Part shown: positions 12,110 through 33,947 of the stretch, piece after piece
How the letters are laid out: each line of letters opens with the position of its first letter
Position numbering within the stretch: position 1 is the first letter of the stretch
Assembly: GCA_002067095.1 (NCBI GenBank)
Contig: MVQD01000067.1
Location: 1 to 50,071 of the forward strand
Reading direction: 5' to 3'
Source of the DNA: Methanoregulaceae archaeon PtaB.Bin056
GTDB lineage: Archaea > Halobacteriota > Methanomicrobia > Methanomicrobiales > Methanospirillaceae
Length of the DNA stretch: 50,071 nt
Translations under genes and position numbers: made by a program
The notes under the pieces: generated by a model
What the model saw: only the letters and a program-made list of their open reading frames with translations
What the model was told of the DNA's origin: nothing
The model's database searches: none

Positions 12110-12596
12110 AAGAGAGATGTGGCACGGCATGGGCTAAATGGTTGCTGAGCGAGTGCGGCGCCCCCTGAACCCGGGCGACTTCCCGGATGCCTTGAATCAC
12201 ACGTCTCTCCAGGGGGAAGGGGCAGGGGAAAAGGGTGTCTCCTTCGGGGAGCTGAAGGTTTGGGATTCTCCACCGCAAGATGAAACAGACCTCACTCAAT
12301 CACGATGACGCTCTTATGCGATGTGCCCCCACTCTTTCGCATCCCCTAAACGCGATAGGCACAGTTCTGGTGAGAAGGAAGAGATCACGTTGCTCTGCAC
12401 CACCCTGCTCACAGGCTATCGCGTATCGGGGGTGGGGACAGGGGAGGGGGATTCTCCCCCTCCCCACAAGATGTAACAGACCGCAGCGAAGCCCAAAAAA
12501 AGCGTCATCGGGGGGAAGTTCCGGTGGAGTTCGCCCGATGAACGGGGTATGCCTGGGACATCCCCGAGCACACCCCCGCCGCAACAGGCATTGTGC
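12110..12596. other. intergenic region carrying a repeat element
   Basis: This 487-bp gap between the hexulose-phosphate synthase start and the nitroreductase end contains the dispersed repeat element at 12303-12510, plus a diverged partial unit just before it (about 12210-12302; GGGATTCTCC then AACAGACC, as in the 33-kb array). No protein gene is supported. Confidence 0.6.
12303..12510 (+). repeat. dispersed copy of the 214-bp repeat, with inverted ends
   Basis: The unit opens with CGATGACGCT (12303-12312) and shares CATCCCCTAA, CGCGATAGG, ACAGGCTATCGC and GGGGGATTCTCCCC with the array at 33.0-33.8 kb. It is bounded by a perfect 10-bp inverted repeat: AGCGTCATCG at 12501-12510. Read on the minus strand, the right end (12510 back to 12485) continues as an inverted copy of the unit start, including GGGCTTCGC. 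Internal stems are ATGCGA/TCGCAT (12316-12342), CGCGATAG/CTATCGCG (12351-12358 with 12416-12423) and an 11-bp stem at 12441-12465. It looks like a small non-coding element of about 208 bp. Confidence 0.7.
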
Positions 12597-31994: not shown

Positions 31995-32204
31995 ATGGCA
32001 GACGAAGGAACTCCCGCAGAGGTGATCGAAGTGATTGGCTCCACAGGGATGCACGGCGAGGCTATGCAGGTGAAGTGCAGGATCCTCGACGGCAACAACA
32101 AGGGCCGGATCATCACGCGCAACACGGTCGGACCCATCCGCGAGGGGGATGTGCTGATGCTGCTGGAGACCGAGCGCGAGGCCAAGAAGCTCTCCCGGCG
32201 GTGA
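31995..32204 (+). CDS. rps28e: 30S ribosomal protein S28e
   Basis: The 69-residue protein has the S28e pattern [19 protein letters not shown] and ends with the conserved [14 protein letters not shown]-type tail. It starts 7 nt after rpl7ae. Confidence 0.97.
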
Positions 32205-32411: not shown

Positions 32412-32861
32412 ATGGACCGCACCTTCGTCATGGTCAAGCCTGACGGCGTTGCCAGGGGGCTCATCGGCGAAGTGGTCTCCCGCCTGGAGCAGAAGGGCTT
32501 CAAGCTCGTGGCGGCACGCCTCGAGAGGCTGCCCGAGAAGAGGGTCATGGAACAGTACCGTGAGCACCTGGAGAAGCCGTTCTTCCCTTCGCTTCGCCAC
32601 TACATCGAGAGCGGTCCCTGCTTCCTGATGGTCTGGGAGGGCAGGGATGCCGCGGCGGTGGTCCGGCGCATCGTCGGCGCGACGAACCCGGCGGAGGCTG
32701 CCCCGGGTACCATCCGCGGGGACCTTGCAATGGACATCGGGAGAAACGTGATTCACGCGTCCGACTCCCCGGAGAGCGCTGCCCGCGAGATCGCCCTCCA
32801 CTTCCCCGCAACGGAGATCGTCTCCTACAAGCGGGTGGACGAGACAGTGCTCTACGAGTGA
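32412..32861 (+). CDS. ndk: nucleoside diphosphate kinase
   Basis: The 149-residue enzyme has the NDK opening [13 protein letters not shown] and the catalytic histidine in [12 protein letters not shown]. It exchanges gamma phosphates between NTPs and NDPs. The ATG at 32412 fits the family exactly. It ends the ribosomal protein operon and is followed by a T-rich terminator. Confidence 0.97.
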
Positions 32862-32875: not shown

Positions 32876-33042
32876 CTCCCCCTATCTCAAGCGTTTTTCA
32901 CCCTTCTGGCGAATCAAAACCAACCCTTCGTCAATAGTGCAGTCCTGCTTTCCGTTTCGCTGGACTGTGCATGACCTTTTCCGGATAAGAACAGTGCTCA
33001 GACGCAGGGCCTGCTTCTGATATCAGAATATCACTCCCCTCT
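32876..33042. other. spacer before the repeat array
   Basis: This 167-bp stretch between the ndk terminator and the first repeat shows no gene and no clear similarity to the repeat units, except its last dozen bases (CACTCCCCTCTCGATG), which match the end of the preceding unit in later copies. Confidence 0.5.
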
Positions 33043-33825
33043 CGATGACGTTCTTGGGGCTTCGCCCCGCCACTGTGGCGTCCCCTAAGCGCGATAGGGC
33101 CAGTGCGAAGCCGCAAGTACTATCCAATCTGTCCGGTTGTTACCCTGCCCACAGACTATCGCGTATCGAGGGGGAGGTCTGGAGGGGGGATTCTCCCCAC
33201 TCCGGTTGCAGGTTCCAGTCAAACTGTTTCAAGATAAACAGACCGCACTCGCTCACGATGACGCTCTTGGGGCTTCGCCCCGCCACTGTGGCATCCCCTA
33301 AGCGAGATAGGAACAGTGCGAAGCCGCAAGTACTATCCAATCTGTGCCGTTATTACCCTGCCCACAGGCTATCGCATATAGAAGGGGAGGTCTGGAGGGG
33401 GGATTCTCCCCACTCCGGTTGCAGGTTCCCTTCAAACTGTTTCAAGAGAAACAGACCGCACTCCCCTCACGATGACGTTCTTGGGGCTTCGCCCCGCCAC
33501 TGTGGCATCCCCTAAGCGCGATAGGGCCAGTGCGAAGCCGCAAGTACTATCCAATCTGTGCCGTTATTACCCTGCCCACAGACAATCGCATATAGAAGGG
33601 GTGGTGTGGAGGGGGGATTCTCCCCACTCCGGTTGCAGGTTCCAGTCAAACTGTTTCAAGATAAACAGACCGCACTCCCCTCACGATGACGCTCTTGGGG
33701 CTTCGCCCCGCCACTGTGGCATCCCCTAAGCGCGATAAGGCCAGTGCTGGGTATCTATCATTATCCGAAGTTTTCCAATTTGCTCTTCCCACAGATTATC
33801 CCGTATCGTGAAGAAGTGGATATTT
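33043..33825 (+). repeat. tandem array of four 213-214-bp repeats
   Basis: Units begin with CGATGACG at 33043, 33256, 33470 and 33684 (periods 213, 214, 214). The first three are nearly identical; the fourth diverges after about 33748 and fades by about 33825. Each holds a GGGGC/GCCCC hairpin with a TTC loop (33056-33068 in unit 1), a GGGGA/TCCCC hairpin with the same loop (33186-33198), and a long-range pairing between CGCGATAG (33090-33097) and CTATCGCG (33156-33163). Open frames in the array repeat the same peptide but shift frame at the 214-nt steps, so they are not credible genes. A related element lies at 12.3 kb. Confidence 0.85.
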
Positions 33826-33947
33826 CCCCCCACCTTGATGGTGAAAACCGTGATTCAATGAGACCCACAGGTCGCCCGGGGAAAAGGGGCAGCCATCCCG
33901 GCAACACCAGAAATATCAAAATATTCCCGCCCCCCACACCAAATGGT
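33826..33947. other. spacer before the nitrilase-type gene
   Basis: No gene is supported. An AT-rich AAATATCAAAATATTC block near 33911-33926 may be the promoter of the hydrolase gene. Confidence 0.45.

Follow-up and report, generated by a model that had tools for sequence, protein, structure and literature searches.

The window, by which we mean the whole 50,071-nucleotide stretch of DNA that was analysed, carries a tandem array in the gap between ndk, which ends at 32858, and a nitrilase-type hydrolase gene that starts at about 33948. Tandem Repeats Finder places the array at 33032-33747 with a period of 214, 3.4 copies and 93% matches. Its score of 1271 leaves no room for chance. The unit boundaries were set by nhmmer with a profile built from 50 units, and by this profile the array spans 33031-33833, its units lying head to tail. 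The tandem arrangement, the 213-214-bp period and the intergenic position beside ndk, all noted in the original prediction, are borne out. The units are as follows, R1 being a covariance model of the 79-nt left core:

33031..33206, + strand: repeat unit 1 (nhmmer profile); left arm divergent at its 5' end
33236..33419, + strand: repeat unit 2 (nhmmer profile); 91-95% identity with units 1 and 3
33449..33633, + strand: repeat unit 3 (nhmmer profile); left core scoring 103.6 bits with model R1
33663..33833, + strand: repeat unit 4 (nhmmer profile); left core as in the others, loop of a different subtype, right arm degenerate
12282..12466, + strand: lone unit of the same repeat family, elsewhere in the window (BLAST, model R1 and nhmmer profile)

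How alike are the four units of the array? The ungapped identity over 213 nt is 91% for units 1 and 2, 93% for units 1 and 3, and 95% for units 2 and 3, so the claim of three near-identical copies stands. The fourth had been taken for a decaying copy. Its identity with units 1-3 is 94-97% over the initial 64 nt and falls to about 47% when all 213 nt are counted. After nt 64 it switches to another loop type, one common to related species; in another species the final unit of the orthologous array has a matching loop and right half. We conclude that unit 4 is a separate subtype and not a decayed copy.

Could the array be the remnant of a repeated coding sequence? Because 213 nt make 71 codons, one frame is open across units 1 and 2 (33045-33515, 156 aa), which is an exception to the earlier statement that no protein frame persists across units. 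However, this frame is closed in unit 3. Other units of the family measure about 165-215 bp, many of them not multiples of three, and conservation tracks the stems rather than codons. A coding origin is hardly credible.

Upstream of ndk, in the ribosomal-protein region of the window, a 27-bp tandem repeat runs for 1.9 copies (32073-32124).

Arms, loops and hairpins of the unit

The left arm of the unit reads, in order, ACCGCACTC..GACGYTCTYGGGGCTNNCGCCCCGCCRCTGTGGCA..CCCC..GCGATAGGGCCAGTGC. It is followed by a variable loop of about 42-52 nt, by the right arm ACCCTGCCCACAGGCTATCGCGTATCGGGG, by a G-rich/C-rich hairpin and by a short linker. In unit 3 the parts lie as follows, with the percentage of cells paired over 62 units:

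33483..33495, + strand: hairpin A (GGGGC-TTC-GCCCC), helix 1, 92.3% paired; counterpart in every unit of the window array
33496..33506, + strand: hairpin B (GCCA-CTG-TGGC), helix 2, 88.1% paired
33509..33524, + strand: central long stem, 5' strand (CCCC..CGCGATAG), helix 3, 79.1% paired
33534..33582, + strand: variable loop; the loops are distinct types common to several species
33583..33598, + strand: central long stem, 3' strand, helix 3
33606..33633, + strand: hairpin C (G-rich arm, C-rich arm), helix 4, 91.5% paired

Across the four helices of the 62 units 85.5% of cells are paired, against 49-59% when the partners are slid by 1-3 columns, and the covariation score is 0.216 against 0.07-0.125 in the slid controls; the arms were paired by hand before counting, so that the structure is partly the analyst's choice, to which the slid controls are a partial answer. 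In the central long stem 7 of the 16 pairs show changes on both sides, and hairpin C shows compensatory CG/GC and GC/AU changes. These changes uphold the earlier claim that the internal stems are conserved. On the plain alignment RNAalifold, run once, recovered almost no structure; the stems emerged only after this pairing by hand and counting.

If the stems are kept, might they be those of an RNA? The units could be structured non-coding RNA genes, or one RNA of several identical domains, read from the + strand, in which the variable loop would confer specificity. Compensatory changes in four helices favour this reading. So does the retention of loop types, which recur across species and loci and are kept between species at common loci (L202 with L207, L095 with L099). 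In the helices of the + strand G-T mismatch pairs also exceed A-C pairs (152 vs 80), but the excess comes from a few positions and is weak when counted by pair position (20 vs 10). It hints at RNA, no more. Against RNA genes, the linkers between units have, by eye on the sequence, no obvious promoter; the orientation of arrays relative to co-directional neighbours is divided just 6 vs 3 by independent locus; and the core also occurs within mobile elements. Rfam, searched over the window, put only a tRNA elsewhere above its gathering score and found nothing beyond chance over the array. This counts further against RNA genes, rules out a known RNA family, and agrees with the earlier failure to recognise any named element. 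On balance we hold RNA genes to be a possible but less likely reading. It is distinctly improbable that the units constitute genus-wide modular structured RNAs (or a nucleic-acid binding system) in which the mobile-element core would act as a scaffold for interchangeable loops kept between species.

Two loci of one species, G012 (L192 and L193), have long perfect hairpins in place of the variable loop, for example GCAGTTGGGGC-GAGGA-GCCCCAACTGC.

A variable segment between constant arms also invites comparison with a CRISPR-like or integron-like array, in which right-plus-left arms of about 150 nt would alternate with inserts of 35-50 nt. Some arrays do open with only the right half of a unit and close with only a left half. 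But the inserts are related to one another, and many units, loci and species have insert types in common, by which the reading is largely refuted. The repeats are also far above CRISPR size, as the original prediction had judged, and the flanking genes are ordinary and unrelated. Such an array is very unlikely.

Spread and placement of the family

A search of relatives by BLAST and covariance model had been proposed, and it finds related copies in other genomes. BLAST gives 8 matches in the window's own genome (G000), one of them the lone copy in the window, and matches in 11 of the 12 other Methanolinea genomes. With model R1 the own genome yields at least 23 matches (E <= 0.01), and the model matches 12 of the 13 Methanolinea genomes and 40 of the 199 Methanomicrobiales genomes, mostly of Methanolinea's own family. 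Neither BLAST nor R1 finds a copy in G007, a Methanolinea genome that is 99% complete in 5 contigs. Two contigs of the own genome start inside repeat units (L086, G000:C61:1, and L087, G000:C62:1); the arrays therefore interrupt the assembly, and the copies counted are a minimum. A pattern scan of 84,980 named species, one genome apiece, returned 48 stretches, nearly all from Methanolinea, Methanoregula, Methanoregulaceae UBA467, other Methanomicrobiales or unplaced Euryarchaeota. Its few bacterial matches look like chance. The copies throughout Methanolinea rule out a single-locus duplication, and a plasmid or phage element is ruled out because none of the plasmids, phages and viral contigs searched holds a match. 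No earlier description of the family was found in open-licence papers. The repeat family is real and, apparently, previously undescribed.

Where do the units lie? Annotation of 12 genomes gave 159 units at 71 places, many of them tandem, with 1-8 copies per array, and the units at any one place always share a single orientation. None of the 71 arrays overlaps a gene predicted by our in-house, simple codon model. Convergent genes flank 15 of 27 independent loci. Among ordinary pairs of neighbouring genes the figure is 6 of 64 (p = 6e-6), and among those with a gap above 60 bp it is 4 of 31 (p = 7e-4). Fourteen loci are common to at least two species, the criterion being that their flanking genes correspond, side for side. 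The flanking genes have no common theme (PGK, an AMP-binding enzyme, a CoaBC-like flavoprotein, YcaO, an ABCE1-like ATPase, a permease and others). One array locus, L097 (2875-4750 and its neighbours), lies by genes for an amino-acid permease and a HicB-like antitoxin and is common to many Methanolinea species.

The gap between ndk and the nitrilase gene holds 8 units in G011, 4 in G000, 3 in G004, 1 in G002 and a partial unit in G012, while in seven other species the gap is 95-263 bp long and has none. Most likely, then, the site was filled within a subclade and the number of units changed later. In the gap of G012 (L158) a different direct repeat (TCTCGCTCGGGAATCCGAAAGGAAAAGAGCG, about 3 copies) adjoins the partial unit. 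With regard to RNA genes, placement of this kind argues both ways: residence at common loci is long, but the number of units follows no regular pattern, and at a given locus several species have none.

The same placement could be that of DNA sites. In this reading the host would use the palindromes as has been proposed for bacterial BIMEs, whether as sites for topoisomerase or nucleoid proteins or as insulators between converging transcripts. The enrichment between convergent genes, the conservation of the palindromes and their retention at common loci beside unrelated genes are all consistent with it. However, selection against damage yields an equal placement, and the lack of any copy in the nearly complete G007 implies that the sites are dispensable there. 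Nor does a T run follow hairpin C in the sequences inspected, so that it is unlike an intrinsic terminator. We consider host-used DNA sites unlikely.

Do the units of different loci evolve in concert? Raw averages favoured concerted evolution, but the paired comparison gave it no support (paralogues 0.671, orthologues 0.660; p = 0.49), and we do not claim it. The original prediction had proposed recent amplification or gene conversion; recent local amplification stands, whereas gene conversion between loci is not demonstrated by the paired comparison.

The MITE form in sister genera and the origin of the array

In three other genera, represented by G019 (UBA467), G024 and G181, the motif GGCTYTGTTGAMATCCT stands on one side of the core and its inverse on the other. 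These inverted ends are 17 bp long and mostly lie 260-295 bp from each other. The motif occurs 32 times in G019, 11 times in G024 and 64 times in G181, but 0 times in the own genome and 0 times in its nearest relative, G011; a reversed-motif control gave 0 in all five. Among 20 end pairs examined, 18 have the core between the ends. Comparison of the 8-bp flanks of these 20 pairs gives 103 agreeing letters out of 160, where 60.7 would be expected and 20,000 shuffles never exceeded 90. The target-site duplication is thus 8 bp in the related genera; the empty sites of Methanolinea are too diverged for it to be measured. At 260-295 bp the elements are non-coding and have no room for a transposase gene. 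The core-bearing elements of G019, G024 and G181 are MITEs. In Methanoregula (G189) the core lacks these ends in the copies aligned. The original prediction spoke of a new structured family unless the unit should match a catalogued IS or MITE. The core does lie inside MITEs in other genera, and that MITE was not found catalogued. The repeat unit is thus more than an independent structured family, since elsewhere its core sits within elements with inverted ends and target duplications. The arrays of Methanolinea lack these inverted ends; they are related to the MITE, and we do not file them as MITEs.

What might have moved these elements? The ends GGCTYTGTTGAMATCCT resemble the IS6/IS26 consensus GGTTCTGTTGCAAA (PMC6807381, PMC7986276), and ISfinder holds two MITEs with IS6/IS26-like ends, of 227 and 336 bp (PMC7986276, PMC6807381). 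The elements of G019, G024 and G181 are like these in being gene-free, about 260-295 bp long and bounded by 8-bp target duplications. The Methanolinea arrays, unlike them, are tandem and have no such ends. PF13610, the IS6-type transposase, was not found in seven genomes, although metagenome-assembled genomes may lack insertion sequences. Loci of PF01609, the IS4/IS5-type transposase, are present, but those checked are not bounded by GGCTYTGTTGAMATCCT ends.

We conclude, with a probability of roughly 0.55, that the array in the window belongs to a family of non-coding intergenic repeats, rich in palindromes and related to MITEs, that occurs in the Methanoregulaceae and that, in Methanolinea, has become a short satellite through local recombination. 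A transposase acting in trans would move, or would once have moved, the 260-295-bp elements of the sister genera, and the Methanolinea form would have spread as a MITE-related element. In Methanolinea the core, without the MITE ends, persists as head-to-tail arrays at old, common loci. Units may be gained and lost when the long arms, being nearly identical, recombine unequally or let replication slip, and this could account for the near-identical triplet in the window, the loop types probably being older. Gaps between convergent genes would tolerate the arrays because an insert there does little harm. The hairpins may be kept through copying or binding proteins that recognise folded or palindromic DNA, which we rank ahead of use of the palindromes by the host.

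Several observations weigh against this MITE-derived satellite. The inverted ends are absent from G000 and G011, so that mobility within Methanolinea we can only infer, and no helper transposase was recognised among PF13610 in the seven genomes or among the PF01609 loci checked. The + strand excess of G-T over A-C hints instead at RNA. Residence at common loci together with covarying stems exceeds what is expected of neutral debris, and it is for this reason that RNA genes and host-used DNA sites remain candidates. A benefit of the arrays to the host is a candidate only.

By analogy, the family resembles MITE-derived intergenic palindromes in the way it would work and bacterial BIMEs in its placement. 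Like REP/BIME sequences (PMC2817692, PMC3733652), the Methanolinea repeats are palindromic, intergenic, near gene ends, clustered and a mosaic of subtypes. But the palindromes there are 20-40 bp long, and here the units are archaeal, 165-215 bp long, with four hairpins and in head-to-tail order only. A REP/RAYT system is ruled out, both by this unit size, which is too large, and by the Y1 (RAYT-type) transposase, found in 0 of 13 Methanolinea genomes while control genomes were positive.

A survey describes non-coding long-repeat satellites as rare in prokaryotes and names Leptospira interrogans and Methanocella conradii as the sole cases (PMC6749651). The Methanolinea arrays belong to the same class, being related long-unit tandem arrays at several genomic places. 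Unlike those satellites, they occur genus-wide at common loci, are structured, and share their core with mobile elements of sister genera. The structured repeat can be traced from its MITE form, seen in sister genera, to the short satellites kept at common loci across a whole archaeal genus. It offers a test case for how mobile debris settles stably into a compact genome and perhaps comes to be used there.

At one locus of G024 (L083, G024:C1:828400-830300) several copies of the core lie side by side in inverted pairs, so that in this genome the MITE form is clustered.
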